From Natronosalvus caseinilyticus (lineage in GTDB: Archaea > Halobacteriota > Halobacteria > Halobacteriales > Natrialbaceae), in assembly GCF_017357105.1 (NCBI RefSeq), contig NZ_CP071596.1, positions 3,286,001-3,350,000 of the forward strand: 64,000 bases of DNA. Direction: 5' to 3'. The notes under the pieces were generated by a model that made no database searches, had not been told where the DNA came from, and saw nothing but the letters and a program-made list of their open reading frames with translations. Numbering within the stretch: position 1 is the first letter of the stretch; each line of letters starts with the position of its first letter. Made by a program: the position numbers and the translations under genes. Below are positions 35,300 through 51,551 of the stretch, piece after piece.

Positions 35300-36688
35300 T
35301 TACTGATCGGCGACGCCCCGTTCCACGACGAGAACTCGAAGATCGTTGACGTTCGTTCCAGTCGCTCCCGTCCGAATCAGCGCGTTGGCCGCCTCGAGCG
35401 TCGGATAGGCGTCGTTCCGCTCGAGCGCTCGTCGCGCTTTCAGCGGATCGAGTGAGCCGTCGCGGGAGACGGTTCGCTGGTCGGCGATGGCTCCCGCCGC
35501 GTCCGTCGCACCGTCGATGCCGTCGGTGTCGACGCTGGCGACGACCGCCGGGACCGCGAGTTCGAGCGCCCCACCGAGAACGAACTCCTGGTTCGGACCG
35601 CCTCGACCGTAATCGTCCACAAGCGTGACAGTGGTTTCCCCGCCCGAGAGGACGACGGCTGGTGGCTCTACTGGCTTCCCCGTCCGGGCAATTTCCTCGG
35701 CAATGGCGACCTGCGTTTTCGCGGCCTCGCGTGCTTCGCCTCGCACGGACGAGGATAGTACGAGCGGCGCGTAGCCGCGGTCGACGGCGACCTCGCGGGC
35801 TGCCTCGAGCGCCGTGTTCGCATTGGCGACGACGTGGCAGTCGACGTCGTCGAACGCGGGATCGTCGTCGGTTGGCGTCTCTCGTTCGTTGCCGTCGGCT
35901 CCGCGTCGGAGGTGCTCGAGAACCGACTTCGGAGCGCCGATGCCGTACCGCTCGAACACGTCGAGCGCGTCCGCGAAGGTCGTCTCGTCGGGCGAGAGCG
36001 GTCCGCTGGCGATCACGCTCTGGTCGTCTCCGGCGACGTCGCTGACGAGCAACCCGACGACGGTCGCAGGAGCCGCGGCGCGGGCGAGATTCCCGCCCTT
36101 GAACCTCGAGAGGTGTTTCCGGACGACGTTGAGCTCGTCGATGGGCGCACCGCTGGCGAGCAGTGCCTCGGTAGTTTTCCGGAGGTCCTCGAGCGAAACG
36201 TTCTCGGCGGGTGCCGGAAGGAGAGCGCTCCCACCCCCGGTGAGACAGCCGAGGACGAGGTCGTCCGGGCCAGCGTTCGCGGCCCGTTCGAGGACCGCGT
36301 TCGCCCCCTCGAGACCGCGTTCGGAGGGGACGGGGTGATCGCCGGGCATCACGTCGATCCGGTCGGTTTCGACGGGGTCGTCGGTGACCACGACGCCGCC
36401 GTCGATTCGATCCCCCAGTAGGGACTCGAGCGCCGCGGCCACGTGGCCTGCGGCGTTTCCGCCGCCGATAACGACGACGTCGTCGTACGCCTCGAGGTCG
36501 TAGGTTTGTGATGGGCCGGCGACCGGGGTGACAGTGAGGTGCTCGTCCTCGAGCGCGAGCGCGTCGAAGACGACCCGTCGTGGGTGGGTGGCATCGGTCC
36601 CCGCGATCAGACAGTCCAGAGCGACCGCTCGCGGTTCGCTCGAGGCGAGTGCGTCGTAGTCCTCGACGGTGATCCGTGGGACATCCAT
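35300..36688 (-). CDS. Glycerate 2-kinase (MOFRL/GckA family)
   Basis: 462 aa. The N-terminal DUF4147 domain has VVIGGGNAAGHVAAALE near 72, MPGDHPVPSERGLEGANAVLE and LTGGGSALLPAPAE near 148. KHLSRFKGGNLARAAAPATVVGLLVSDVAGDD is typical of the kinase. The C-terminal MOFRL domain has VLSGGETTVTLVDDYGRGGPNQEFVLG and SVDTDGIDGATDAAGAIAD. It phosphorylates D-glycerate to 2-phosphoglycerate, feeding lower glycolysis. It is the last gene of the sugar cluster, 9 bp after the GH15-like gene. Confidence 0.94.
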   Translation of the reverse strand: MDVPRITVEDYDALASSEPRAVALDCLIAGTDATHPRRVVFDALALEDEHLTVTPVAGPSQTYDLEAYDDVVVIGGGNAAGHVAAALESLLGDRIDGGVVVTDDPVETDRIDVMPGDHPVPSERGLEGANAVLERAANAGPDDLVLGCLTGGGSALLPAPAENVSLEDLRKTTEALLASGAPIDELNVVRKHLSRFKGGNLARAAAPATVVGLLVSDVAGDDQSVIASGPLSPDETTFADALDVFERYGIGAPKSVLEHLRRGADGNERETPTDDDPAFDDVDCHVVANANTALEAAREVAVDRGYAPLVLSSSVRGEAREAAKTQVAIAEEIARTGKPVEPPAVVLSGGETTVTLVDDYGRGGPNQEFVLGGALELAVPAVVASVDTDGIDGATDAAGAIADQRTVSRDGSLDPLKARRALERNDAYPTLEAANALIRTGATGTNVNDLRVLVVERGVADQ

Positions 36689-36697
36689 ATCGACACC

Positions 36698-38041
36698 TTA
36701 CTCGTTGGCCCGTTTGAGTAGCGCGGTCAAGAACTCGGCGTGACACCACGCCAGAGGTGCCGCAAAAGCGATGACCTCGCTCTCTTCGAGGGCCTCAGCC
36801 ATCCCGTCGTACGCCCTCCGCATGGACTCGAGTTCCTCGACGACACGGTCGAAGGGAACGTCGCGGAGCACGTCCGGGTCGAACTCCTTATCGAAGTCAA
36901 CGCCAGTGTTCCACTCCCGCGCTCGGAACTGTTCGAACCGGTCGCGCGTCGAGAGGTGCTCGGGGATGAAGCCATCGTCGTCCGCGTGACTAACGATCGT
37001 CGAAAGCACGTCGTCACCGCGATCGAGTTCGCCTCGATCGTACCGATACTGCGCATGCCACGCCGTGTACTGCATCCAGGGGCCTGTACCACCGTGCTGG
37101 TGGACTTCGTGGTCGCGGTGGAAGCCGCGGAATCGCTGGAGTCCCCCGAGTCGCGGATCTTCTAACCCCGCTGCGGCCCGTTCAGCGGCTCGAATCGCCT
37201 GATCTCCAAACAGATCCTCGAGGTCGAAGTACGTGGGTGCCAGAAGTGTGATATCGGGACGGTCGTCGCGCTCTCCGTCCGGCGTAAAGCGCCGGGGGAC
37301 TGGAACGTCGTCGACCGCGAAGCACCGCTTTACACCAGGCTCGAGACGGTTCAGAAATTCCTCGATATGGTCTCGCTCCGCATCGACTGCAATGTTTGTA
37401 GCGGCGTCGATCCGTTCGAAGGCGTCGAGTGCTTGCCGAAAGCCGGCAAGGAACGCGCAGTTGACCCAGAGGGTGTAGCCGGATTCGATCGCTCCCTCGT
37501 GAATACTCGTGGTGCTCTCGATCAGATGAGCGTTAGCGTCGTAGAGGTCGCGCCGCGCATGTGCCACTGCGGCGTCGATCGCCTCGACGGCCGCAGAGAG
37601 AAACGCCTCGTCGGCCGCTTCCAGACCTGTCACGGTCTCGAGGGCGACCACGGCGTGAGCGATAATTCGGATGCCGTGGGCGACGTTGTCCTCCTGCCGG
37701 TAGATGCCCTGTTCGGTCCCGTCGAGCGCGTATCGTTGATACCAGCGGCCGTCATCCTCGACGGCAATCATGAAACGGGCCGATTCGAGAATCCGGTTCA
37801 GACACTCCGTCGGTCGCACATCGTGTCGGATCGCCGTCAGCCACGCGCGGGTGATCGAGGCAATGTCACGCGGATATGCGTAGGGATACCGATTGTCCGG
37901 ATCGCTTGCGAGGGGTACCCCACCCTCGACCTCGGCTTCGTAGGTGAGTTCGTCCAGCACGTCGAGATGGAATTCTGGGTTCGCGATCGCTTTGGAGTGC
38001 TGAAAGGCGATACCGTCCGTCGTCTGCTGAGAACAGGTCAT
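36698..38041 (-). CDS. GH15-like glucoamylase/alpha-glucosidase
   Basis: 447 aa (alpha/alpha)6-barrel glycosidase. NRYPYAYPRDIASITRAWLTAIR near 51, DDGRWYQRYALDGTEQG near 100 and LIESTTSIHEGAIESGYTLWVNC near 172 resemble GH15 glucoamylases. In GH15 the two catalytic Glu residues lie in equivalent loops, but I cannot fix them here. There is no signal peptide, so it is cytosolic and acts on imported oligosaccharides. It lacks the N-terminal supersandwich domain of bacterial glucoamylases. Related clan members (GH63-type glucosylglycerate hydrolases of similar length) are an alternative. It is 8 bp from the MalK gene. Confidence 0.75.
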   Translation of the reverse strand: MTCSQQTTDGIAFQHSKAIANPEFHLDVLDELTYEAEVEGGVPLASDPDNRYPYAYPRDIASITRAWLTAIRHDVRPTECLNRILESARFMIAVEDDGRWYQRYALDGTEQGIYRQEDNVAHGIRIIAHAVVALETVTGLEAADEAFLSAAVEAIDAAVAHARRDLYDANAHLIESTTSIHEGAIESGYTLWVNCAFLAGFRQALDAFERIDAATNIAVDAERDHIEEFLNRLEPGVKRCFAVDDVPVPRRFTPDGERDDRPDITLLAPTYFDLEDLFGDQAIRAAERAAAGLEDPRLGGLQRFRGFHRDHEVHQHGGTGPWMQYTAWHAQYRYDRGELDRGDDVLSTIVSHADDDGFIPEHLSTRDRFEQFRAREWNTGVDFDKEFDPDVLRDVPFDRVVEELESMRRAYDGMAEALEESEVIAFAAPLAWCHAEFLTALLKRANE

Positions 38042-38049
38042 AAGAGATT

Positions 38050-39216
38050 TTACTTGCGGGTGAGCGGTTGGGTGTCGCTGCGTGTTTCGCCGAAACCGCG
38101 GGTCTTGATCGATGCCGTCGTGTCTGGATCGAACAGATAAATGTCGGCTGGAGCGATGGCAACTTCGATTTCGTCGCCAGTCTCCGGGTAGACCGAAGGC
38201 CTGACGCGAGCCGTCATCGAACGACCGTCGACGTCGAGGTAGACGAAGTTGTCGTTACCCTGGTATTCGGTAACCGAAACGGTGGCCAGGAAGTGGCTCC
38301 CGGTTTCGTTTTCGTCTTCGCCCCCAGCGTCGAGAGTGAGGTCCTCGGGTCGAACCCCAAACCGGATCGTCCGTCCCTCGAGATCGTCTTCGACGGACTC
38401 CTGGGGAACGCGGCCGAGCGTCGTCCCCTCGAGGTCGAACGCGTAGTGATCGCCTTCGGCGCGGACGATCACGTCGAAGACGTTCATCGCCGGACTCCCG
38501 AGGAAGCTCGCGACGAACTCGTTGACGGGATGTTCGTAGGCGACCTCCGGTGGATCGACCTGCTGGAGGACGCCGTCGTCCATGATGGCGATGCGATCCG
38601 CCATCGTCATCGCCTCGGTCTGATCGTGAGTCACGTACACCGCGGTCACGTCGAGATCGGCCTGAATCCGCTGGAGCTCGGTACGCATGTGCGATCGAAG
38701 TTTGGCGTCGAGGTTCGAGAGCGGCTCGTCGAGCAGGAATACGTCCGGATCTCGAACGAGTGCCCGCCCGAGTGCGACCCGCTGTTTTTGCCCGCCGCTC
38801 ATCGCCTCGGGTTTGTCCTCGAGCAACTCCTCGATGTCGAGGAGGGCGGCGGTCTCTTCGACCCGATTTGCTCGCTCGTCGGCGGCCATGTTGGTCGAGT
38901 GCTTGAGTCCGTAGCCCATGTTCTGACGGGCCGTCATGCGCTTGTACAGCGCATAGCTCTGAAACACCATCGCCACGTTTCGCTCGCTCGGTGCGAGTCG
39001 GTGAACCGTCCGGTCGTCGATGTTGATCGCGCCATCGGTTACCGTCTCGAGGCCCGCGATCATCCGGAGTGTGGTCGACTTCCCGCACCCCGATGGGCCG
39101 ACGAGAACGAGAAATTCTCCGTCTTCGACGGTTAGTGAGACGGAGTCGACCGCCGTGATTTCGCCGTCTGTATCGTCGTAGACTTTCGTAACGTCCTGTA
39201 GTGTGAGTTCAGCCAT
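38050..39216 (-). CDS. Sugar ABC transporter ATPase (MalK/UgpC type), copy 2
   Basis: 388 aa. Walker A GPSGCGKST is at 40-48, Q-loop MVFQSYALYKRM, signature MSGGQKQR, Walker B DVFLLDEPLSNLDAK and H-loop VTHDQTEAM are all present. The C-terminal TOBE/OB region (about 240-375) is the MalK-type regulatory domain. It overlaps the debranching-like gene by 8 bp. A second MalK lies three kilobases upstream in the same cluster, sharing the one visible pair of permeases. Confidence 0.92.
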   Translation of the reverse strand: MAELTLQDVTKVYDDTDGEITAVDSVSLTVEDGEFLVLVGPSGCGKSTTLRMIAGLETVTDGAINIDDRTVHRLAPSERNVAMVFQSYALYKRMTARQNMGYGLKHSTNMAADERANRVEETAALLDIEELLEDKPEAMSGGQKQRVALGRALVRDPDVFLLDEPLSNLDAKLRSHMRTELQRIQADLDVTAVYVTHDQTEAMTMADRIAIMDDGVLQQVDPPEVAYEHPVNEFVASFLGSPAMNVFDVIVRAEGDHYAFDLEGTTLGRVPQESVEDDLEGRTIRFGVRPEDLTLDAGGEDENETGSHFLATVSVTEYQGNDNFVYLDVDGRSMTARVRPSVYPETGDEIEVAIAPADIYLFDPDTTASIKTRGFGETRSDTQPLTRK

Positions 39217-41272
39217 CGATAGTCACCTCCGGGTGGGTGTCGCCGTCAACGTCTGGATCCGACTCGGAGTCCACGGTTCGCTCGATCGGTTGCGCTGAAA
39301 TCACGCCATCAGCGATCAACGCCGCCTGCGTGAAGCCGAACGCGCTTCCGGCGCTCCAGGCCGCTGGCTCGCACGAATCTGGGTGGCGAGCGCGTCCGGC
39401 GTCCACGGCGGGCTCGTCTAGGCCGACGAGCAATTCGGGAAAGCCCCACCGATCGGGACTGGCCTTGAGGCCGCTCGAGAGCGCACCCAGTCCGCGGTCG
39501 ACGAGTTCGTCCACGGCGTCCGCGCGGCCGTACCGCGCACACCCGAGCGCGGCGAGGCTGGAATCGTGGGGCCAGACGCTCCCACGATGGTAGGAGAGTG
39601 GATCGAACGCCGGGTGCGAGGACGAGTACGTTCGGACGCCGGCGTCGGCCAGCATGTCCGGCTCGAGCAGTCGATCGATCACGCTCTCTGCCCGTTCGGC
39701 CGGGACGATTCCCGACCACAGGGCGTGGCCCTGGTTGGAGGCGACCGCCTCGACCGGTCCGCCGGCGTCGAGCGCCAGGGCATAACTGTCTGCCCCGGGG
39801 AGCCAGAACGCCTCGTCGAACGCGCTCTGCAGGTTGCCGGCTCGTTCCTCGAGCGAGGCCGAACGGGCCTCGTCGTCGCGTGTACTGGCGAGACGGGCGA
39901 CGCCGCGAAGCGCCCGGTAGGCGTATCCCTGTACCTCCGTCAGCGCGATCGGTGGCGTCGCCGCGGTGCCGTCGGGATGAGCGATCGCTCGAGCGCTGTC
40001 CTTCCAGCCGAGGTGGGTGAGCCCGTACTCGTGATCGTGGGGCTCGTACCAGAGAAGTCCGTCTTCGTCGCCCGCCGAAATCGTCCACTCGACGGCCTCG
40101 ACGGCGGCGGCGTACAGGTCGTCCGAGACCGGGGATTCGCTGGATTCCGCGTAGGCAGCGACGAGCGCGGCGAACAGCGGCGTCGCGTCCACCGTTCCGT
40201 AGTACGGCCTGCGGATCGATCGACCGAGCGCCGGACGGTCCCCGAGACGCCCCTCGTGAGGTATCTTTCCGGGTTCTGCGCGGGTGTCGGTGTCGGTCGT
40301 CGACGCCTGTTGCTCGGCAAGGTACTCGAGGATTCGTTCGGTCAGCTCGGGTGCGAACGGCAGCGTCTGAAACCCGACGAGGAGGGCATCGCGTCCGAAC
40401 GGGGCGACGAAACGTGGGGCACCCGCAGCAGGGACGCCCTCGGGGAGCATCAACACCTGCAGGGTGGCTTCAGCGGCCTCGAGAACCTGCTCGAGGGGCG
40501 CGTTCGTAAGGGACGCTGGACTCGGATCCGTCTTCGACGCCGGGGGCGCGGTCGGGACCTCGAGGGACGTCACAGGGGACAGGTCGAACTCGGGAACAGG
40601 AATCGGTTCGCCACGCATCGGTCGTAGCGTCGCGGTGGCGACGACCGTTCGGTTCTCGCCGGCCGCCAGATCGATCGTCCGCTCGAACGTGGCTCGAGCG
40701 CCCTCGCCGGCAGAATCGACGCGTTCGAGACGGCATCCCTCGACGATAATCGCCGCCCTGCGAGAGGTCCCATCGGGCGAGGTACCAACGATGGCTACCG
40801 TCTCTTCGTGTTCGGAGGCGGTCGCGAAAATCTCCCGGTCGACCGGCTCACGCGGCGAAAAGAACCCAGGACACTCGAAGACGTGTCGGAACGCGCTACC
40901 GATTTCGAACTCGAGGTCGAGCACCCGCTCTTCGAGGGCGTGGTTTCGAACCGTCGTCTCGAGGACGACCGTAGCCTCCTCGATCGAGAGGCGCTTTTTC
41001 AGCACGAACTCACGAGCGTCCCCACGTCCGTCCCCAGGGGCGGCACCCATCAGAACGGTGGTGACGCCTCCGGGTCCAGCGCGTCGCTCCAGCCGATCCC
41101 AGCCTCGTCCGGGAGCGGTTCGGTCGGTTACTCGAACGCTGAACTGCCGGAGGTACTGGGTATCGTTCGCGTAGACCCCCGACTCATCAGGCTGGGTTCG
41201 CACGTCTCCGTCGGGACCGACGACGCAGACCACGCCGTTTCGAACCGTCAGTGCACAGTCCTGGGGGATCAT
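39209..41272 (-). CDS. Glycogen-debranching-enzyme-like glycosidase
   Basis: 687 aa. Residues 1-215 match the beta-rich N-terminal domain of debranching-like enzymes (FSVRVTDRTAPGRGWDRLERR; GVYANDTQYLRQFSV). Residues 260-660 form an (alpha/alpha)6 domain with APRFVAPFGRDALLVGFQ, GTVDATPLFAALVAAYAE, EVQGYAYRALRGVARLA, SNQGHALWSGIV and SYHRGSVWPHDSSLAALG. These suggest an alpha-1,6-glucosidase or related exo-glycosidase. It has no signal peptide. It overlaps the genes on both sides (4 and 8 bp), so it is part of one transcript with the transporter. Confidence 0.8.
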   Translation of the reverse strand: MIPQDCALTVRNGVVCVVGPDGDVRTQPDESGVYANDTQYLRQFSVRVTDRTAPGRGWDRLERRAGPGGVTTVLMGAAPGDGRGDAREFVLKKRLSIEEATVVLETTVRNHALEERVLDLEFEIGSAFRHVFECPGFFSPREPVDREIFATASEHEETVAIVGTSPDGTSRRAAIIVEGCRLERVDSAGEGARATFERTIDLAAGENRTVVATATLRPMRGEPIPVPEFDLSPVTSLEVPTAPPASKTDPSPASLTNAPLEQVLEAAEATLQVLMLPEGVPAAGAPRFVAPFGRDALLVGFQTLPFAPELTERILEYLAEQQASTTDTDTRAEPGKIPHEGRLGDRPALGRSIRRPYYGTVDATPLFAALVAAYAESSESPVSDDLYAAAVEAVEWTISAGDEDGLLWYEPHDHEYGLTHLGWKDSARAIAHPDGTAATPPIALTEVQGYAYRALRGVARLASTRDDEARSASLEERAGNLQSAFDEAFWLPGADSYALALDAGGPVEAVASNQGHALWSGIVPAERAESVIDRLLEPDMLADAGVRTYSSSHPAFDPLSYHRGSVWPHDSSLAALGCARYGRADAVDELVDRGLGALSSGLKASPDRWGFPELLVGLDEPAVDAGRARHPDSCEPAAWSAGSAFGFTQAALIADGVISAQPIERTVDSESDPDVDGDTHPEVTIDG

Positions 41273-42411
41273 TCGTCGATCACCTCCCCCTCCGGCCCGA
41301 ACCGGTGAATCGCGTCGGCGGAGAACTGCAGGGTCGCCGCCGATCCCGGCTCGGTCGTCTCGGGCCGGTGGCGCAAGCGAGCGGTGACGACCGTTCCGTC
41401 ACAGTCGAACTCGATCTCGTACGCGTTTCCGAGAGGCTCGACGACGAGCGTCTCGCCTTCCAGCTGGTAGGTCTGCCCCGAGTGGTGTGACTGCATTTGT
41501 TCATCTCCCTGTCGGTGTCGGTGGCCGTCTTCTTCGGCGACGGTGACGTCTTCGGGACGGACGCCGATCGTCGCCGCCCCAGAGAGCGAGTTCTCGCCGC
41601 TAATCGATTTCAATTGTTCGGGCTCGAGGAAGTTCATCGACGGCTCCCCCAGGAATCCCGCGACGAACTCGTTGACGGGATTCTCGTAGACCTCCTTTGG
41701 TGTGCCAACCTGCTGGAGGCGACCGTCGTTCATCACCGCGATGCGGTCGGCCAGACTCATCGCCTCCTCCTGATCGTGGGTGACGTAGATCGTCGTCGTT
41801 CCCAGTTGTTGCTGGAGGCGACGCAGTTCGGTTCGCGTCTGGACGCGAAGTTTCGCGTCGAGGTTCGACAGCGGTTCGTCCATCAGGAACGCCTTCGGCT
41901 CGCGGACGATGGTCCGTCCAAGTGCGACCCGCTGGCGTTGCCCGCCGCTCAACTGACCCGGTTTGTTGTCAAGCAGGTCGTCGATCTCGAGCAATTCGGC
42001 GGTTCGCCGGATTCGCGCCTCCATTTCATCGTCCTCGAGATCCAGCTTCTCGAGCGGGAACTCGAGGTTGCCTCTGACGGTTTTGTGCGGGTACAGCGCG
42101 TAGCTCTGGAAGACCATCGAGAGATCCCGCTTCTGGGGAAGCGTTTCGGTAACGTCCTGCTCTCCGATTTCGATGGTTCCTTCGGAGGGGATCTCGAGGC
42201 CGGCGATCATTCTGAGAGTGGTCGATTTGCCACAACCCGAAGGGCCGAGCAAGACGAGGAACTCGCCGTCCCGAATCGTCAGGTTAAGGTCGTCGACGGC
42301 CAGCAGGTCGCCGAAGTGCTTGGTGACGCCGTCGAGACGAATTTCGGAGAAGGCGTCGGTTCCGAGGCTGGTCGTTTCCGTCTCGGACTCGGAGAGTGTG
42401 TGCTCTGCCAT
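41269..42411 (-). CDS. Sugar ABC transporter ATPase (MalK/UgpC type), copy 1
   Basis: 380 aa. Walker A GPSGCGKST is at 56-64, signature LSGGQRQRVALGR, Walker B AFLMDEPLSNLDAK and H-loop VTHDQEEAM. A 20-residue acidic N-terminal extension precedes the domain. The C-terminal TOBE region is shorter than in copy 2. It lies one base after the MalG-like permease gene and overlaps the debranching-like gene by 4 bp (ATGA). Being directly next to the permeases, it is the more likely primary ATPase. Confidence 0.94.
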   Translation of the reverse strand: MAEHTLSESETETTSLGTDAFSEIRLDGVTKHFGDLLAVDDLNLTIRDGEFLVLLGPSGCGKSTTLRMIAGLEIPSEGTIEIGEQDVTETLPQKRDLSMVFQSYALYPHKTVRGNLEFPLEKLDLEDDEMEARIRRTAELLEIDDLLDNKPGQLSGGQRQRVALGRTIVREPKAFLMDEPLSNLDAKLRVQTRTELRRLQQQLGTTTIYVTHDQEEAMSLADRIAVMNDGRLQQVGTPKEVYENPVNEFVAGFLGEPSMNFLEPEQLKSISGENSLSGAATIGVRPEDVTVAEEDGHRHRQGDEQMQSHHSGQTYQLEGETLVVEPLGNAYEIEFDCDGTVVTARLRHRPETTEPGSAATLQFSADAIHRFGPEGEVIDE

Positions 42412-42412
42412 G

Positions 42413-43324
42413 CTATCCCTCCACCGCCCCGAAGGTGAGCCCTTCGACCATGAATTTCTCGAGATAGGTGAACATCACGATCAGCGGAATGCTCGTCAGC
42501 AACGACGCCGCCATGATCTGGCCCCAGACCTGACGGAAGCTCGAGGACAGTGCCTCGATCCCGATCGGCAGAGTGAACACGCTCTGGGACTGCAGGAAGA
42601 TGCTGGCGAACAGGTACTCGTTCCACGCGATCATGAACGTGAAGAAGAACACGGCCACGATCGCCGGCGCCGACAGCGGCAGCGTGATCTTGAAGATTAC
42701 CTCGAGACGGGAGTAGCCGTCCATGATAGCGGCTTCCTCGATCTCCTCCGGAATCGACCGGAAATAGTTGCCGAGCATGTACAGTGAGACGGGTAGCGTC
42801 TGGACGAGATACGTGATGAACAGGCTCGCCAGCGAGTCGACGAAGCCGAGCCAAACGATCACCTGAAACATCGGGACGACGAGTAGAATGCCCGAGAACA
42901 TGTAGACCATGAGGACGCCGCGGGAAAAGATTCCCCGGCCGCGGTAGTCCAGGCGGGCGAAGCTGTAGGCGCCGAAGGTGGCGATGACTACTGACGCTCC
43001 GGCGGTGACCACCGAGACGATGAAGCTGTTCTTGAAGTACGTGATGAACGGGAACGTCTCGGGCCCGAATACTGTTCGATAGTGCTCGAACGTGATTTCG
43101 GTCGGGATGAGAGTCGGTGGCAGCGTGTAGAGGGTCGATTCGGGCAAGAGGCTCGCGACGGTCATGTAGTAGAACGGAAAGAGCGTCACGAGCAAGGTCA
43201 AGCCCATCGCGAGATAGAATACGACCCGTTCGAAGAGCGACGTCTCGATGGTCGCCTCCCCGACGCCGAGTGCGTTCTTGAACGAGTCGACGACGTGTCG
43301 GTAGGTGGATTGCTTCGTACTCAT
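42413..43324 (-). CDS. Sugar ABC transporter permease (MalG type)
   Basis: 303 aa with six membrane helices. The EAA loop (EEIEEAAIMDGYSRLEVIFKITLPLSAPAI near 204-233) contacts the ATPase. The N-terminal cytosolic part (about 30 residues) and the LPPTLIPTEITFEHYRTVFG periplasmic loop are typical of MalG/carbohydrate permeases. It starts 4 bp after the MalF-like stop and pairs with it to form the channel. Confidence 0.94.
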   Translation of the reverse strand: MSTKQSTYRHVVDSFKNALGVGEATIETSLFERVVFYLAMGLTLLVTLFPFYYMTVASLLPESTLYTLPPTLIPTEITFEHYRTVFGPETFPFITYFKNSFIVSVVTAGASVVIATFGAYSFARLDYRGRGIFSRGVLMVYMFSGILLVVPMFQVIVWLGFVDSLASLFITYLVQTLPVSLYMLGNYFRSIPEEIEEAAIMDGYSRLEVIFKITLPLSAPAIVAVFFFTFMIAWNEYLFASIFLQSQSVFTLPIGIEALSSSFRQVWGQIMAASLLTSIPLIVMFTYLEKFMVEGLTFGAVEG

Positions 43325-43328
43325 CGTT

Positions 43329-44219
43329 TCACCAGTCTAGTGCCCACGCGACGTACCCGAGCACGAACACGATCAACGCCAGAAACAGCACCATCGAGAT
43401 CGCCGCCGCCTGTCCGTGCTGGTAGTTTGCGAACGCCACCTTGTACGCGTAGATCGGGAGGGTCTCGACCCGGCGGGTCAACAACCATATGTCCGCGAAC
43501 TTGTTAAAGTTCCAGATCCACCGAAGCAAGAACACCGTCGCGAGGATGTACTTGAGTTCCGGCAACGTGATGTCCTTGAACTGGGCAAATTTCGAGGCCC
43601 CGTCGATCTTCGCTGCCTCATACATGTCGCTCGGTATCGCCTGCACGCGAGCGATCAACATCAGGAACGCGAAGGGGAAGTACCGCCACGCGTCGATGAA
43701 CACGACGGACCAGAGCGCGGTGTCGCCGTTGCTCAACAGATCGACGTTGCCGTCGTAGAGCCCCAGGAGGTCGCTCCCGATGTAGGGGACGATTCCGTAC
43801 AGCGGGTCGAGCATGAACCGCCAGACGAACGCGACCGAGATCAGGGGTGCGACGTAGGGTAGCAACACGAGTCCGCGCACGTACCGTCGACCACGAAACG
43901 CACGATTGAACAGAAGTGCGGTTCCGAGACCCCCGAGGGTCGCCAGCGTCGTGCTGAAGAACGTGAATACGACCGTCGTCCACAACGCGCCCCAGAACTG
44001 ACTGCTCCCGAGCAGGGTGGAGTAGTGCTCGAGGCCGATCCACTGGGGAGACTCGTTGGGGTTGAGCGGGACAATCGTGAAACTGAGATAGACGTTGTAC
44101 AGGACCGGGTAGAGGATAACCGCCGCGATCAATACCAGGGCGGGGGCAATCAGCGCGTAACCCAGGAGCGCCTCCTTCTCCTCGATCGTCCGATCACCGC
44201 TACGGGTGAGTATGGCCAT
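43329..44219 (-). CDS. Sugar ABC transporter permease (MalF type)
   Basis: 296 aa with six helices, the first at 22-45 (IAPALVLIAAVILYPVLYNVYLSF). The EAA motif is seen in DMYEAAKIDGASKFAQFKDITLPELK near 200. There is no large periplasmic loop, so it belongs to the shorter UgpA-like class. It lies between the binding protein (15 bp) and MalG (4 bp). Confidence 0.94.
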   Translation of the reverse strand: MAILTRSGDRTIEEKEALLGYALIAPALVLIAAVILYPVLYNVYLSFTIVPLNPNESPQWIGLEHYSTLLGSSQFWGALWTTVVFTFFSTTLATLGGLGTALLFNRAFRGRRYVRGLVLLPYVAPLISVAFVWRFMLDPLYGIVPYIGSDLLGLYDGNVDLLSNGDTALWSVVFIDAWRYFPFAFLMLIARVQAIPSDMYEAAKIDGASKFAQFKDITLPELKYILATVFLLRWIWNFNKFADIWLLTRRVETLPIYAYKVAFANYQHGQAAAISMVLFLALIVFVLGYVAWALDW

Positions 44220-44234: not shown

Positions 44235-45551
44235 TTAGTTGATCACGTCGCGCATCTCCTCGGCAACTTCGTCCGCGACGGTCTGGGCGTCTTCTCCTTC
44301 GGACACTCGTCTGACCGCTTTAGCGACGAGCGTGCGGCTGGTGATGTCCCCGAATTCGGGGATCATCTGGCCGTCGACGTAGCCGAAGCGTTCGATGTTG
44401 TCGAACGCGCCCGAGATGTTTCCGAGGGTCTCTTGCCCCCACTCCTGAAGCGTCTCGTTATCGCGGTACGCGTCGCTTTCGGCCGTCGACTGGAGTACTG
44501 GGTTCATACCCCCGGGCGCCATGTGAAGGAAGTCGACGTATTCCTCGCCAGTGAGAACGTGCTCAACGAAGCCCTGTGCGGTCTCCGTCTCGGTGTCGCT
44601 GGCGGTGTCGAGTACGTTGAACATGACGAGCTGACCGAACGAACTGCGCCGCTCATGCTCGATGTACGGTGCGAAGGAGGTGTCCTCTGCCAGTCCGTCC
44701 GCGTTGCTGGAGATGTCGCCCATGATGTACGAGGAGTACATGATGAGGTGACACTGGTCGTTGAGATACGTGTTATTCGCCGTGTCGAAGGTATCGGCCC
44801 CCGGTGGGCTATATTCGGCGAGTGAACCGTAGAACTCGAGCGCTTCGACCATCTCGTCGCTGTCGAAGACGATTTCGCCGTCGGCGTTGAATACGCGAGC
44901 CCCGTTCGACCGGGCGTAAGGCGTGAAACACTGCCGGGCGAACGGCGTCTCGTCGGAGCCGACGACGACCCCGTACTCGTCGTTGTCCGGATCGTGGAGC
45001 GTCTCCGCGGCCTCGAGGATGGCGTCCCACGTCGTAGGGGCGTCGAGTCCGGCGTCGTCGAACGCACTCTGTCGGTACCAGAATCCCTGCACCCAACCGT
45101 GAGCCGGAACCGCCAGCAGGTCGCCGTCGGCGGACGTCGCAAGCGATAGTGCGCCCTCGTAAAAGTCGTCTCGGCCAATTTCGTCGACGATCGACTCCGC
45201 CGTGTCGCTCGAGAGGAGTCCCTCGCTTCCGAGGTTCTGCATCGGGTCCAGCCCCCACTCCCCGAACGCCGGCAAGGTGTCCGATGCCTGTGCCGACGAA
45301 ATCTGCGTGGGGAGGTCGCCTTCCTCGACCGGGACCATGTCGATCTCTCCGCCGTCGTAGCTATCGATCAGCTTCTGCAGGACTTCCTGTCGATCCTGCT
45401 CGACGTTCGTCGTCCAGAACGTGGTTTCGTTGGTTCCGTCGTCACCCCCCGTGATGGTACTCAGACACCCTGCAGTCGCTCCGGCGGCTGCCGTTACCCC
45501 GATCCCCTGCAGTACCGCTCGCCGATCGAACCCGAGTTCTCGGTCTGTCAT
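44235..45551 (-). CDS. Tat-exported lipoprotein sugar-binding protein
   Basis: 438 aa extracellular solute-binding protein of ABC family 1. The signal FDRRAVLQGIGVTAAAGATAGC has a twin-Arg motif and a lipobox (TAGC), so the mature protein would be anchored via Cys near residue 30. The mature part has YDGGEIDMVPVEEGDLPTQIS and GWVQGFWYRQSAFDDAGLDAPTTWDAILEAAETL, typical of MalE-type proteins. Start MTDRELG (45551); the two ATG/GTG codons before it do not extend a conserved part. The ligand is unknown. Confidence 0.93.
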   Translation of the reverse strand: MTDRELGFDRRAVLQGIGVTAAAGATAGCLSTITGGDDGTNETTFWTTNVEQDRQEVLQKLIDSYDGGEIDMVPVEEGDLPTQISSAQASDTLPAFGEWGLDPMQNLGSEGLLSSDTAESIVDEIGRDDFYEGALSLATSADGDLLAVPAHGWVQGFWYRQSAFDDAGLDAPTTWDAILEAAETLHDPDNDEYGVVVGSDETPFARQCFTPYARSNGARVFNADGEIVFDSDEMVEALEFYGSLAEYSPPGADTFDTANNTYLNDQCHLIMYSSYIMGDISSNADGLAEDTSFAPYIEHERRSSFGQLVMFNVLDTASDTETETAQGFVEHVLTGEEYVDFLHMAPGGMNPVLQSTAESDAYRDNETLQEWGQETLGNISGAFDNIERFGYVDGQMIPEFGDITSRTLVAKAVRRVSEGEDAQTVADEVAEEMRDVIN

Positions 45552-45651
45552 GGTAGTCCATCCCAATATGGAGAATAATACTACTTAATGTTTTTGGGTG
45601 TCTTATTCACTAAGGTTACTACGGATGTCAGTGCGTGGTCGTCGTGGTGCG
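45552..45651 (-). promoter_or_regulatory. AT-rich gap with probable internal promoter for the transporter genes
   Basis: This is the only sizeable gap (100 bp) in the ten-gene cluster. It is AT-rich near 45575-45600 with a T-run and TTAAG/TATTATT-like elements on the minus strand, about 25-45 bp before the binding-protein ATG. It suggests separate expression of the highly needed binding protein. Confidence 0.45.
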
Positions 45652-47190
45652 TTACTCCGCTGGTGCACATCGCAGTCGCAAACGATACGAGGATCTCCCG
45701 TCGATTGCGAGTGAAACCGTTCCGTTCGAGAGCTGGAGTGATCCCTCGTCGACCGCCGCCTCGACGGCCTCGACGGTGAGGAGACCGGAACCGATCGACG
45801 CCTCCCGAGGCTCGTCGCTCACGTTCGAGAGAACGAGAACGATCCACCCGGAGCCGCGCGCGTCTCCCGCGTCTGGGAATCCAATAGGGTCCGCGTCGTC
45901 GGGTCGAACGTGGTGAACCAACACCGGTGGCTCGGGTAGGTCGAGGAAGCTCTGCGTCAGCCCGCGGGATCGCTCCTCGAGCGGCTTGGCCGTGGATTCA
46001 CCGGTTGTCTGGACCAGCGGCTCGTGGTGCTCGGCTTCCATTCCTAGCCGATGAGCTCTCGCTTCGTCGAACGAATCGGCGTGTAGCTGAAAGTGATACT
46101 GCGCACGCACGAGCCCCGGCTGACGGGCCCGAAAGTTCGTATCCCAGTAGTTGCTCGTCACCCAGCCCAACAGTAACGCCCGCTCGAGATCGGTGGTCGA
46201 ACGAGTCTCCGCGAAGTGATAGCCGCCGAACTGCACCATCGGGTTGAGCGGACAACCGACCGTGACGCTCCGTTCCTCGCCGCCGAAGGCGACCCACCGC
46301 TGTGCGGTGTAGTAGTCGTGGCACGTTCCGGACAACTGGTCGCGGCCGGGACGCATCGCGTGCCCGCCGACGTCGACGTACGGAGTAGGGCTGTCGAGGG
46401 CGAACGGGAACGTCAGGTACGTCGATTCGGGGTGCGTGTCCAGTCCCATCTCCCACGCCGCGTCGACGACCATCGAATCTCCGGAATCCTCGAGGAATAG
46501 CCGTAACGAAACGGGGGAGCGAAGCGTCGGTACGCGGAGACGCTGCCGGATCTCGAATCCGCCCGGGAGCGCCGAAACTCGATGACTGAGCACCTCGTTC
46601 GACCGTTCACGGCTGGCGCCCCAGTCGGCCCGAAATCCGTCGTACGTCCCGGTCGCACCCGTCGCTACGAGTCGACGATTCACGTCGGCGTCGTACCGAT
46701 AGAGCAACTGTCGGGGTCGCTCGTGCCCTTCGTCCGCGACTCGTTCGTGAACGATTCCTGCGAATCCCTCTTCACAGGAGCCGTCGATCCACTCTGTCTC
46801 GCGTTCGACGTCGTACCAACTCGAGACGCCGCCGCGCTCCAGGTCGAACGTTACCCGGTAGCCGCCGGTTTCGATTACCTCGCTTCGGTCGATTCGTTCA
46901 CCCTCGAGGATGCGCAGTTCGTCCGCCGAAACGACGACGTATCCGAATCCCGGAAGCTCCGTTGGCGGCAGCCAGTAGGCATTCGATCCGAAGACGGCCG
47001 AGTCGTCCCCGTTGTCGAACGCCGCAGGCGTCGAGCGCGATCGGTCCCGGTCCTGAAAGTGGCGGGCGGCCGTCGGATCGTCGACGATGCCGCGGGGACT
47101 GACGACGTGCCGCGAGATCGGGCCTAACTGGGTTCGTCGCCACGGAAGCGGGTTCACGACGAGCAGATCGGTCGACGGATTTTCACTCAT
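45652..47190 (-). CDS. GH38-type alpha-mannosidase, C-terminal half (separate protein)
   Basis: 512 aa, beta-rich. DLLVVNPLPWRRTQLGPISRHVV is the start of the GH38 C-terminal beta-sandwich region. FDLERGGVSSWYDVE near 123-137, GFEIRQRLRVPTLRSPVSLRLFLE and TYLTFPFALDSPTPYVDVGG also match. It lacks the catalytic HxD domain, which is in the gene just upstream. Start MSENPSTD at 47190 overlaps the upstream stop (ATGAGTGA, 8 bp). The two products probably assemble into one enzyme. No signal peptide is seen. Confidence 0.82.
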   Translation of the reverse strand: MSENPSTDLLVVNPLPWRRTQLGPISRHVVSPRGIVDDPTAARHFQDRDRSRSTPAAFDNGDDSAVFGSNAYWLPPTELPGFGYVVVSADELRILEGERIDRSEVIETGGYRVTFDLERGGVSSWYDVERETEWIDGSCEEGFAGIVHERVADEGHERPRQLLYRYDADVNRRLVATGATGTYDGFRADWGASRERSNEVLSHRVSALPGGFEIRQRLRVPTLRSPVSLRLFLEDSGDSMVVDAAWEMGLDTHPESTYLTFPFALDSPTPYVDVGGHAMRPGRDQLSGTCHDYYTAQRWVAFGGEERSVTVGCPLNPMVQFGGYHFAETRSTTDLERALLLGWVTSNYWDTNFRARQPGLVRAQYHFQLHADSFDEARAHRLGMEAEHHEPLVQTTGESTAKPLEERSRGLTQSFLDLPEPPVLVHHVRPDDADPIGFPDAGDARGSGWIVLVLSNVSDEPREASIGSGLLTVEAVEAAVDEGSLQLSNGTVSLAIDGRSSYRLRLRCAPAE

Positions 47191-48499
47191 CGGCCACCTC
47201 CTCGGAAGCGACTTCACGATCGGGCGTGCACTCGGCCTCGCGGTCGCGTTCCGCCGCAGTTTCCGCCCCGTCCGCGTCGAGAACGTAGCGGGCTACCTCT
47301 GCCACCGCATCCCGTCGTAGCGCGTTGCTGTCGTTGCGTGCCGAGTGGGCGTACTGGGCCTTGTGATTCCACTGGGTTCGCGTGTCTTCGCTCTGCGGGT
47401 CGCTTATCGCGGTGTCCGCACCCCACGTGTGCTCGTCGTAGTACGCGAGGTTCCGCCACGCGCGTTCTCGAGTACCGGCGCCCACGCGACGGTAGCGTGG
47501 CCGTTCGTTCCGCCCGTTGCCCAGCGCACCGAGGACCGCCTCCATCGCGTCTGCAGTCAGCAGTCTGCGCCGACTCTCACGGTTGATCCCCGTTTCGCGA
47601 GCGCTGCTGAGACAGCCGAAGTTCCAGTAATCCGTCCAATCGCCGCGTCGAATCGGCGCGTCTCCGAGGGCGTCGTCGACGGACTCCCACCACAGGGAGG
47701 GCGTCGACAGTTTGAGCCGTGGAGACCGCCCCTCGCGGACTGCTGGTCGGTCGTTCCACGCCTCGACGAACGCGCCGTACCGGTCGAACGGCGGCCCGTT
47801 GTCGCCGAACGGGTGGTACGCCGGGATCGGAAGCGTCGGCAAATCGTACCCCACGGCGTCGAGACGGTCGGCGACCGCCTCCCAGCGAGTTTGGAACGTC
47901 TCGAGGTCTCGTTCGATGCCGAGATTCCAACCCGCGGAGTAGTGATAGCCGTCGAGGGTCGGGATCGTTCGGCCGCTCGGCCCCTCCCAGCGAAACAACG
48001 ACGGTCGGTCGGTCGCGGCCGCGCCGAAGTGGTTGTTGATCCCCATCCAAAATCCCTCGATTCCGGCGTCCAGGAGTGCGTCGACGAGGGGCCAGTTCTG
48101 TCCGTTGACGTCGAAGTTCACAGCGTATCGGACGTCGAACCCGTACCGGTCTCGAAGAATTTCGACCGGGCGAAGCGACTCGACGGTTTCCGCGGGGCCG
48201 TACAGCGGCGTCGCGTTCGCCAGCATTCCCGTGATTTCGATCCGACCGGCCGACTCCGCGCGCTGGAGTGCTTTGATCCGCTCTGGCGGCGCCGATTCGA
48301 GCCAGTGCAGGAGCGGCGCGGTCGCCTCTACCGTCCACCGAAACGCTGCGGGTCCGTCGATGGCGAGATCCTCCTCTGCCAGGTCGATGGCTCGCTCGAG
48401 AAACCGGCAATGCAGGTCCCAGAGCGTCGGCTGATCGTGAGTGTACCCGACGTCGGTGTGTGAGAGGTGAACGACGTGTATTTCGTCAACAGTTGTCAT
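47183..48499 (-). CDS. GH38-type alpha-mannosidase, catalytic half (separate protein)
   Basis: 438 aa. HVVHLSHTDVGYTHDQPTLW at residues 7-26 carries the zinc-binding His-x-Asp of the GH38 barrel. FDVNGQNWPLVDALLDAGIEGFWMGIN near 133 probably includes the nucleophile Asp. EHTWGADTAISDP near 352 supplies a further His and closes the catalytic region. The C-terminal 40 residues are an acidic, unconserved tail, so the protein ends naturally before the beta domains that other GH38 enzymes carry. It is the first gene of the ten-gene cluster, with a TATA box 25 bp upstream. Its substrate may be a mannoside or mannosylglycerate; not determined. Confidence 0.85.
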   Translation of the reverse strand: MTTVDEIHVVHLSHTDVGYTHDQPTLWDLHCRFLERAIDLAEEDLAIDGPAAFRWTVEATAPLLHWLESAPPERIKALQRAESAGRIEITGMLANATPLYGPAETVESLRPVEILRDRYGFDVRYAVNFDVNGQNWPLVDALLDAGIEGFWMGINNHFGAAATDRPSLFRWEGPSGRTIPTLDGYHYSAGWNLGIERDLETFQTRWEAVADRLDAVGYDLPTLPIPAYHPFGDNGPPFDRYGAFVEAWNDRPAVREGRSPRLKLSTPSLWWESVDDALGDAPIRRGDWTDYWNFGCLSSARETGINRESRRRLLTADAMEAVLGALGNGRNERPRYRRVGAGTRERAWRNLAYYDEHTWGADTAISDPQSEDTRTQWNHKAQYAHSARNDSNALRRDAVAEVARYVLDADGAETAAERDREAECTPDREVASEEVADE

Positions 48500-48625: not shown

Positions 48626-49726
48626 ATGAACGAAGACGACCTTCGATCCGGGCTTCAGGAAGCCGGCCTCTCCCAGTACGAGGCCGATGCCTACCTCGCA
48701 ATTCTCGAGCGCGGTACCGCACCAGCGGTCAAGATTGCCGAGCAGGCAGGGGTACCGAAATCAAGGATTTATGACGTACTCAGGGATCTCGAGCGGGACA
48801 ACTACATCGAAACCTTCGAGCAGGACTCGGCGCTAACAGCCCAGCCGCGCGATCCCGCGGACGTGATGGCCGATCTCGAGGAGCGAGCGAAGACGCTCTC
48901 GACGACCGCGAAGGCGATCGAAGAGCGCTGGGAACAGCCGGAGATCAGCGATCACAAAATCTCGATCGTCAAGCGCTTCGACTCGGTCATCGAGCAGTTC
49001 CAGATAGCAGCCGAAGCAGCGACCAATCGAATCCAGATCGCCGTCTCACCGTCGCAACTCGAGGCGGTCCGCCCGTCACTCGAGGACGCCGTCGAGCGCG
49101 GCGTCTTCGTGAAACTCTGTATCGCCACCGGGTTCGAGGAGCCCCACGTCGTCGAGGAGATTGACTTCGAGAGCGTGGCGACCGAGGCTCGACACCGGAC
49201 GTTGCCGGCGCCGTTTACCGCGCTCGTCGATCGGACCCACACGTTCTTTTCGTCTCAGTCGCACCCGAGTGACCAGTACGGAATTATCATCGACGACTTC
49301 ACGCTATCGTACGTGTTCCACTGGTACTTCCAGAGCGCACTCTGGGGAACGTGGCAACCAGTCTACGCCCCCGCTGCGGGCACCAAACGGGAATACGTCG
49401 ACGTGCGCGAATGTGTCCAGGACATCGCGCCGATCGTCAATGCTGGCACTGCGATACCGGCTACCGTTCGTGGGTTCGACACACAGACGGGCGAGAACGT
49501 AAGCCTCTCCGGGGAGATCACGGAGATTATCTCCGCAGGACGGCCCGACGAGGACGGGGCGCTGACGCTGACGCAACTGGCCGGACAGGCGACCCTCGTC
49601 CTCGAATCCGACGGTCTCGAGTACGGCATCGGCGGGCGAGGGGCGACCCTCGAGGACATCGAAGCGACGCGTGTGGTCATCGACCCACCCGAATCGATCG
49701 ATGGCGACGTGGGGGGTGAGACCTGA
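48626..49726 (+). CDS. TrmB-family sugar-sensing transcriptional regulator
   Basis: 366 aa. The winged-helix DNA-binding domain is at 5-75 (GLSQYEADAYLAILERGTAPAVKIAEQAGVPKSRIYDVLRDLERDNYIE). A coiled linker, a PLD-like or sugar-binding domain (about 110-250) and a C-terminal beta domain (GFDTQTGENVSLSGEITEI onward) complete the full-length TrmB layout. TrmB proteins respond to sugars and act as repressor or activator. It is divergent from the GH38-transporter cluster and heads the operon with the isomerase and dehydrogenase. Confidence 0.93.
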   Translation: MNEDDLRSGLQEAGLSQYEADAYLAILERGTAPAVKIAEQAGVPKSRIYDVLRDLERDNYIETFEQDSALTAQPRDPADVMADLEERAKTLSTTAKAIEERWEQPEISDHKISIVKRFDSVIEQFQIAAEAATNRIQIAVSPSQLEAVRPSLEDAVERGVFVKLCIATGFEEPHVVEEIDFESVATEARHRTLPAPFTALVDRTHTFFSSQSHPSDQYGIIIDDFTLSYVFHWYFQSALWGTWQPVYAPAAGTKREYVDVRECVQDIAPIVNAGTAIPATVRGFDTQTGENVSLSGEITEIISAGRPDEDGALTLTQLAGQATLVLESDGLEYGIGGRGATLEDIEATRVVIDPPESIDGDVGGET

Positions 49727-50538
49727 TGCGCTTCGGCCTCAACCAGAGCGGGTTCCCCGCGGACGATCTCGAAACGACCTGCGAGATCCTCTCAGCAGCG
49801 GGGTACGACGGCATCGAGCCGAACCTCGAGCGCGGCGGCCCGCTAACGACCGACGCCGGCCGGCGCGAGGTCGCAGCGACGATCGCGGACTATGGCCTCG
49901 AGGTGCCGGCAATTTCGACGATCGAGCACTGGGAGTACCCCCTTTCGAGTTCGGAGGACGAACGCCGCGAGGTCGGCATGGAACTCGCCAAAAACATGAT
50001 CGATGCCGCCGTCGCACTCGACGCCGAGAACGTGCTGATCGTCCCCGCCGTGATCGAGGACGGGCGCGAGTACGATCTCGGATACGACCAGGCGGTCGAG
50101 TCGGTCCGTGAACTGGCTGGATACGCCGAAGCACGGGACGTCACCCTGGCTCTCGAAAACGTCCAGAATAACTTTCTCCCGTCTCCCACCGAATTCGAAG
50201 CGTTCCTCGAGGAGGTTTCGGAAGCAGGACCCGTCGCGGCCTACTTCGACGTCGGAAACGCGCTCCGCTCGGGACTTCCGAGTCGCTGGCTGGCGACACT
50301 CCAGGGCCAAATTTCCAGAATCCACGTCAAGGACTGGCTGGTCGACAACCATCGTGTGACCTATCCACCACAAGGCGACGTCGACTGGGAGCGTGTTCGC
50401 GAGACGCTCTCGGAAATCGAGTACGACGGCTGGATCACCGCAGAGGTGCCGGCGTATCCGTCGTTCCCCGAGCGAATGCCTGTAGACGTGCTGGAGACGA
50501 TGCGATTTCTCTTCGGAGACGGGGGTGAGCGGGCGTGA
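49726..50538 (+). CDS. Sugar phosphate isomerase/epimerase (xylose-isomerase-like TIM barrel)
   Basis: 270 aa AP-endonuclease-2/hydroxypyruvate-isomerase fold. Metal ligands appear as Glu in LALENVQN near 144, Asp in AAYFDVGNAL near 173 and His in ISRIHVKDWLVDN near 196. A final Glu is in WITAEVPAYP near 237. The family includes hydroxypyruvate isomerase, inosose dehydratase and tagatose epimerase. The start shares one base with the TrmB stop (TGATG). The exact reaction is unknown. Confidence 0.9.
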   Translation: MRFGLNQSGFPADDLETTCEILSAAGYDGIEPNLERGGPLTTDAGRREVAATIADYGLEVPAISTIEHWEYPLSSSEDERREVGMELAKNMIDAAVALDAENVLIVPAVIEDGREYDLGYDQAVESVRELAGYAEARDVTLALENVQNNFLPSPTEFEAFLEEVSEAGPVAAYFDVGNALRSGLPSRWLATLQGQISRIHVKDWLVDNHRVTYPPQGDVDWERVRETLSEIEYDGWITAEVPAYPSFPERMPVDVLETMRFLFGDGGERA

Positions 50539-51551
50539 CCAGATCCATCGTCGTCGGGCCGCTGTTCGAAGACGTCTGGCCGCTGGCCGCCGACCACCTT
50601 CGAACGTTGTGGACCGAGCGCGGTCCCGTCGACTATTATCGGCTCGAGGAGACACCCGATCGGCTAACGGCGGTCCTCGACGAACCCGGGTCCATAACCG
50701 AGATCGCTGCCCTCGGCGTTCCGGTCACCGATGCAGACATCGAAGCCCTTTCTGGGCTCGAGTCGGCGTTCGTCATGACCGATTCGATGTACGCGGTCGA
50801 CGAGTCGGTTCACGACCGCCTGCGCGAGCGCGGGGTCACCGTCCTCGATCACACGAACGAAGGGTTCTGGGCGCAGTCGGTTGCAGAGTTCGGCATCGGT
50901 CTCACTATCGATGCGCTCCGCCAGATCCCGCAGAAACACTCTCGAATGATCGAGAGCCACGATCCCTGGGATCTCGACCAGCTCGACAACGACGTGCCGG
51001 GTGCGAACGGTCACCAATTCGCTGACGATCCCCGGTTCACTAACGGTACCGTCGCCGGAACTCGAGTCCGCGTCGCCGGAGTCGGGAACATCGGAAGCAC
51101 CTACGCTGACGTCGCGAACGTCCTCGGCGCGGACGTTGCCGCCTACGACCCCTACGCCGACGAACCGTGCTTCCACCGTACCGGCGCGCGGCGCGTTCAC
51201 TCGCTCGAGGCGCTGGTCGCGGACGCCGAGGTGTTCGCGCCTACGGTTCCCCTGACCGACGCCACCGAGGGACTGATCACGGCCGACCTGATTCACGCGC
51301 TACCCGAGGGCTGTGTCGTCGTCCTGATCACGCGCGCTGGCGTCGTCGACATGGACGCGGTTCGCGAGCGCGTCCTCGCCGACGAGATCGCCCTCGCGGC
51401 GGACGTTTGGGACGAAGAACCACTGGCTCTCGAGGATCCACTGCTCGACCGGCACAACGTCGTTCACACCCCCCACATCGCGGGACGAACGCGGGACGCC
51501 AACGAGTCGTGGGCCGAGTTGCTAGACGCTCACTTTCGGGCCGCGGAGTAA
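50535..51551 (+). CDS. D-isomer-specific 2-hydroxyacid dehydrogenase
   Basis: 338 aa NAD(P)-dependent dehydrogenase. The dinucleotide-binding motif is VAGVGNIGSTYADV near 177. Catalytic Arg lies in LITRAGVVD, Glu in DVWDEEPLALED and His in HTPHIAGRT. GTG start at 50535, overlapping the isomerase stop (GTGA). The family includes glyoxylate/hydroxypyruvate reductases and 3-phosphoglycerate dehydrogenase. With a glycerate kinase in the neighbouring cluster, a hydroxypyruvate/glycerate or related sugar-acid reaction is plausible but unproven. Confidence 0.9.
   Translation: MTRSIVVGPLFEDVWPLAADHLRTLWTERGPVDYYRLEETPDRLTAVLDEPGSITEIAALGVPVTDADIEALSGLESAFVMTDSMYAVDESVHDRLRERGVTVLDHTNEGFWAQSVAEFGIGLTIDALRQIPQKHSRMIESHDPWDLDQLDNDVPGANGHQFADDPRFTNGTVAGTRVRVAGVGNIGSTYADVANVLGADVAAYDPYADEPCFHRTGARRVHSLEALVADAEVFAPTVPLTDATEGLITADLIHALPEGCVVVLITRAGVVDMDAVRERVLADEIALAADVWDEEPLALEDPLLDRHNVVHTPHIAGRTRDANESWAELLDAHFRAAE

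Follow-up and report, generated by a model that had tools for sequence, protein, structure and literature searches.

A GH38-type glycosidase appears to be encoded in two pieces in Natronosalvus caseinilyticus. The 64,000-nucleotide stretch that was analysed (contig NZ_CP071596.1, positions 3,286,001 to 3,350,000; here called the window) contains two overlapping open reading frames, raising the question of whether the pair represents a two-subunit enzyme or a gene broken by a frameshift or a sequencing error. The original prediction had described a 438 aa product (N) and a 512 aa product (C), with the ATG of C inside an 8-nt overlap, and these lengths and coordinates were found exactly as claimed (Table 1). 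It had also described the family as normally single-chain, which agrees with bacterial relatives that are single chains of 870-922 aa and with conventional one-chain GH38s carried by the same Halomontanus plasmids as the split pair.

Table 1. Coordinates of the gene pair and neighbouring features in the window
Feature	Coordinates	Strand	Remarks
N subunit gene, 438 aa	47183..48499	-	ATG 48499, TGA 47183; GH38 catalytic alpha/beta barrel and helical bundle, from Pfam and conservation in 13 haloarchaeal copies
C subunit gene, 512 aa	45652..47190	-	ATG 47190, stop 45652; beta-sandwich part; fused relatives match Glyco_hydro38C2; paired fold match
8-nt overlap ATGAGTGA, C start and N stop	47183..47190	-	Only 8- or 4-nt overlaps in relatives
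Shine-Dalgarno-like GGAGGTG, a few nt upstream of C start, within N gene	47191..47205	-	dG -14.9 with AUCACCUCCU
ABC sugar-binding protein (SBP_bac_1)	44235..45566	-	First importer gene, downstream of pair
Two ABC sugar permeases	42413..44219	-	43329-44219 and 42413-43324
MalK-type ATPase, 687-aa GDE/MGH1-like glucosidase, second MalK-type ATPase, 447-aa orphan	36698..42411	-	
TrmB-type sugar regulator, sugar isomerase-like AP_endonuc_2 protein, 2-hydroxyacid dehydrogenase	48626..51551	+	Divergent; syntenic in L013, L017 and L019

Relationship of the pair to known GH38 enzymes

The N protein matched Pfam Glyco_hydro_38N above the gathering score (1e-9; 38.6 bits vs a cut-off of 25) and carries the sole such match in the 4.2 Mb haloarchaeal genome that includes the window. 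The Pfam score for the alpha-mannosidase middle domain was below the cut-off in the pair, and C alone had no Pfam match above threshold and none in NCBIfam or PHROGs. H14, D16, D130, D233 and H357 of N are invariant in the aligned haloarchaeal copies, and their order and spacing are those of the Zn ligands, nucleophile and acid/base of SpGH38 (H13, D15, D125, D232 and H351), as judged by motif and not by superposition. The His ligand of N is followed by Thr358, for which the SpGH38 counterpart by motif spacing is the substrate-binding Asp352, making mannose specificity uncertain, and the exact sugar may differ. C begins just before an NPLPW motif, which opens the C-terminal region of fused relatives, and residues invariant in those relatives are kept in C, including the stretch NYWxTNFRAxQPG.

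The window's N and C were modelled with AF2 as one tethered chain (P0004), with the junction read through via a one-word code. The model, which represents a tethered chain rather than a true complex and was built from an alignment of 16 rows (window and genome-locus) with only three other full-length chains, reached a pTM of 0.84 and a pLDDT of 77, with a disordered junction (424-441). Its best PDB matches in Foldseek were whole GH38 alpha-mannosidases (2wyi; E 4.5e-28, TM 0.64/0.67). C modelled alone gave a pTM of 0.70 and a pLDDT of 67 and, as its alignment was also smaller, this lower confidence hints only weakly that C needs N. A PDB sequence search with the close N profile gave no match, and the wider profile A3 found a weak match to jack bean alpha-mannosidase in both halves.

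The modelled likeness to GH38 alpha-mannosidases (SpGH38 2wyi, Bl_Man38A-C, jack bean 6b9o and GMII) extends to the overall fold across both halves, but the known enzymes are encoded as one chain, share ~12% identity with the haloarchaeal pair and have Asp rather than Thr after the His ligand. The jack bean and lysosomal alpha-mannosidases resemble the haloarchaeal pair in consisting of several chains, but these come from one gene and are cut after translation, not from two genes. LacLM is the heterodimeric GH2 beta-galactosidase of lactobacilli. It is a heterodimeric glycosidase encoded by two overlapping genes (PMC4358714), like N and C, but it is bacterial and belongs to an unrelated family. 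As jack bean alpha-mannosidase consists of 44 and 66 kDa subunits (PMC7083800), the GH38 fold tolerates a break.

Distribution and origin of the split

The pair is rare. Of 391 genomes sampled from the class, four had full copies (that of the window, G225, G167 and G201, which has two), and no other full copy was present among the family genomes searched (n=125). Further copies were identified in G418 and G419 and on plasmids of Haloprofundus halobius, Halomontanus rarus and Haladaptatus. The split point is identical in all 13 intact haloarchaeal copies, lying between ...ELARRV and ...NPLPW, and the two genes are always adjacent. Because L027 and L028, and likewise L029 and L030, are near copies, the 13 amount to about 11 independent ones. 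The N stop and C start overlap by 8 nt in five copies (the window, L027, L028, L031 and L032) and by 4 nt in eight (L013, L014, L015, L016, L029, L030, L042 and L043), and C starts with ATG in 12 and with TTG in one. C was seen only in genomes or records also holding N. Both genes carry only the label 'hypothetical protein' in those plasmid records that are annotated, so that recognition of the split GH38 names an enzyme that annotation misses. In G201, the Haloprofundus plasmid with the two intact split pairs also carries a fragment of a third N gene (L018:3570-3872).

A conserved two-gene GH38-type enzyme is present in haloarchaea. As every intact haloarchaeal copy examined has the same split, a broken gene or a sequencing error can be dismissed and the pair taken as a genuine two-part enzyme. 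Ka was well below Ks in both N and C in the four pairs compared, indicating purifying selection on both, with C evolving somewhat faster than N in three of the four. The view that the gene pair is intact is thus upheld by the shared split, by this selection and by a conserved Shine-Dalgarno (SD)-like motif. The acidic tail said to end N is long only in the window and is present in shorter form in L013, but the other copies end a few residues past the conserved ...ELARRV.

Single chains collinear with the pair and belonging to the same subfamily were found in the Chloroflexota (Caldilineaceae L010, 922 aa; Anaerolineales L011, 879 aa), Deinococcus (L033, 875 aa) and 'Arthrobacter citreus' (L034, 870 aa). 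In these fused relatives the Pfam cut-off was reached by Glyco_hydro38C2, and GH38C fell below it. The conventional GH38s on the Halomontanus plasmids are single chains with all four GH38 Pfam domains, indicating that splitting is a trait of this subfamily and not of haloarchaea generally.

In a tree of N+C, made without the misframed row L038, the split copies formed one clade (94 bootstrap/98 SH-aLRT, just under the tool's star threshold), sister to the fused Chloroflexota pair and with the other fused bacterial chains outside. A tree of N only, which included that row, was less resolved and had the fused Chloroflexota copies branching within the split group. As the split copies form one clade, a single ancient fission in the haloarchaeal line is most likely. 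The tree implies three or more changes of overlap class (8 vs 4 nt), with the overlap itself retained, and a topology holding the 8-nt copies together as one group was rejected (p-AU 2e-8).

Two further sequences were noted among the bacterial records. On a plasmid of Deinococcus sp. AJ005 (L037:4001-6177), a fused relative is broken within the N part and is annotated only as a 260-aa piece. A DUF5054 protein with weak GH38N similarity (L010:10675-12678) is encoded two genes downstream of the fused Caldilineaceae homologue, and DUF5054 proteins look like distant GH38 kin.

Translation of the second gene

In all 13 copies the C start is preceded by an SD-like motif that ranks among the best 3.5% of 15-mers in the N gene concerned, and that of the window is the strongest 15-mer of its N gene, the pairing being calculated with an assumed anti-SD sequence rather than one from the genome's own 16S. 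At the N starts such a motif is weak or absent in 12 of the 13 copies, the exception being L043, with none before the N start in the window, a pattern that fits mostly leaderless first genes. The C frame is +1 relative to the N frame in the window, where an alternative GTG start at 47217 would give a 521-aa C. The ATG at 47190 is favoured, as the strongest anti-SD pairing in the N gene lies directly upstream of it and relatives start at the equivalent position.

Among overlapping genes in Haloferax, -4 is the commonest spacing (354 pairs) and -8 is frequent (62), such pairs are tightly coupled via termination-reinitiation, and haloarchaeal SD motifs serve mainly reinitiation (PMC6728339, PMC10666635). 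Complex subunits make up 45% of close pairs vs 5.6% of distant pairs in Haloferax, an 8-fold enrichment (PMC6728339, PMC10666635). The window pair shows features expected of a translationally coupled pair, namely the same strand, a spacing within the range -8 to +6 nt and an intragenic SD motif, and translation of N and C is probably coupled. Ribosomes finishing N would reinitiate at the SD-equipped ATG of C, yielding near-equal amounts of the two chains. The evidence overall strongly suggests that the two products form a complex.

Two explanations would instead make the pair a single chain. A one-base change could in principle unite the frames, and the bacterial homologues are single chains, as expected if an intact gene had suffered a sequencing error or recent frameshift, but the split is identical in 13 copies from independent assemblies, the SD-like motif and C start are conserved and both halves are under purifying selection; this explanation can effectively be excluded. 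Programmed frameshifting could alternatively fuse both ORFs, as in the alpha-L-fucosidase gene fucA of Saccharolobus (PMC8037382), also an interrupted archaeal glycosidase in two overlapping ORFs, and in several copies, including the window, no stop codon interrupts the C frame for a considerable distance upstream of the C start. However, fucA has a 40-nt overlap and an A-AAA-AAT slippery site at which a -1 frameshift generates a single product (PMC8037382), whereas no -1 slippery heptamer was found in the 11 copies scanned, and the stretch open in both frames is just 7-10 nt in L014, L042 and L015. The frame relation also varies among copies (+1 vs +2), which a single frameshift mechanism cannot fit, and each C ORF comes with a start and an SD-like motif of its own, leaving frameshifting very improbable.

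It may also be asked whether N alone is the enzyme, with C a separate protein in another role. All of the catalytic residues lie in N, and C is unrecognised by Pfam on its own and is the faster-evolving half in most pairs. However, the residues retained in C are those invariant in the fused relatives, and C was not found without N. Furthermore, the beta domains contribute to the active centre in solved GH38s, SpGH38 among them (PMC2815779), so C is expected to be needed. A separate role for C is therefore considered unlikely, though less so than frameshifting.

The predicted enzyme and its genetic context

The pair quite probably specifies a cytoplasmic two-subunit GH38-type glycosidase that is produced by coupled termination-reinitiation and serves the ABC sugar-uptake operon, its ancestral chain having been split once in haloarchaea. 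The ancestor would have been a retaining, Zn-dependent, alpha-mannosidase-like GH38, with the break falling where the helical bundle gives way to the beta domain. The N and C chains would associate non-covalently to form a single active site, in which the Zn ligands, nucleophile and acid/base would come from the barrel and the beta part would complete the substrate pocket. As no signal peptide was seen in N, the enzyme probably acts in the cytoplasm, where it is predicted to trim an oligosaccharide brought in by the neighbouring TrmB-linked ABC transporter; this substrate would be alpha-linked and likely contain mannose. The activity is predicted to be mannosidase-like, and the guess of a mannose-containing substrate comes from the fused bacterial relatives, whose gene neighbours include ABC importers, ROK kinases and mannose-6-phosphate isomerase.

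The literature searched, which covered few subscription papers, contained no report of a genetically split GH38. On balance, we favour the view that this is the first genetically split GH38-type enzyme, an obligate heteromer arising from a single haloarchaeal fission, in which the overlap was kept though its length and frame changed several times, pointing to selection for coupled, co-translational assembly. The pair gives a textbook glycosidase family a gene architecture undescribed in the literature searched, and it offers a clear natural example of fission, with single-chain bacterial sisters available for comparison. As the overlap class has switched repeatedly without loss of the overlap, the idea that short overlaps are retained for co-translational assembly of complex subunits can also be tested directly here.

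The GH38 pair is located directly upstream of the sugar-uptake operon in the window, and the same arrangement was found in L013 with L055. In the related genomes G105 and G088 the operon is kept, and between the TrmB gene and the binding protein gene there is only a stop-riddled N remnant of 70-90 codons (L017:7351-7605 in G105; L019:8810-9007 in G088) and no C. Loss of the pair with retention of the operon indicates that the pair is dispensable, and is a point against the favoured reading. Other haloarchaeal copies adjoin genes for sulfatases, fucosidases and Gfo/Idh/MocA oxidoreductases, and these differing neighbours suggest that substrates may vary between clades.

A glycerate 2-kinase-like gene (35300-36688) ends the operon in the window and, together with the MGH1-like match of the 687-aa protein (39209-41272), suggested a mannosylglycerate operon. 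This was dropped as the main reading, as no glycerate kinase match was present in the downstream stretches fetched from three relatives (L055, L056 and L057), and the 687-aa protein is closest to the archaeal amylo-alpha-1,6-glucosidase 7vma (1.1e-74). The operon includes two different MalK-type ATPases (38050-39216 and 41269-42411) with a single permease pair. The 447-aa protein (36698-38041) has no Pfam, NCBIfam or PDB sequence match, and is found with ~70% identity in the operon of three relatives.
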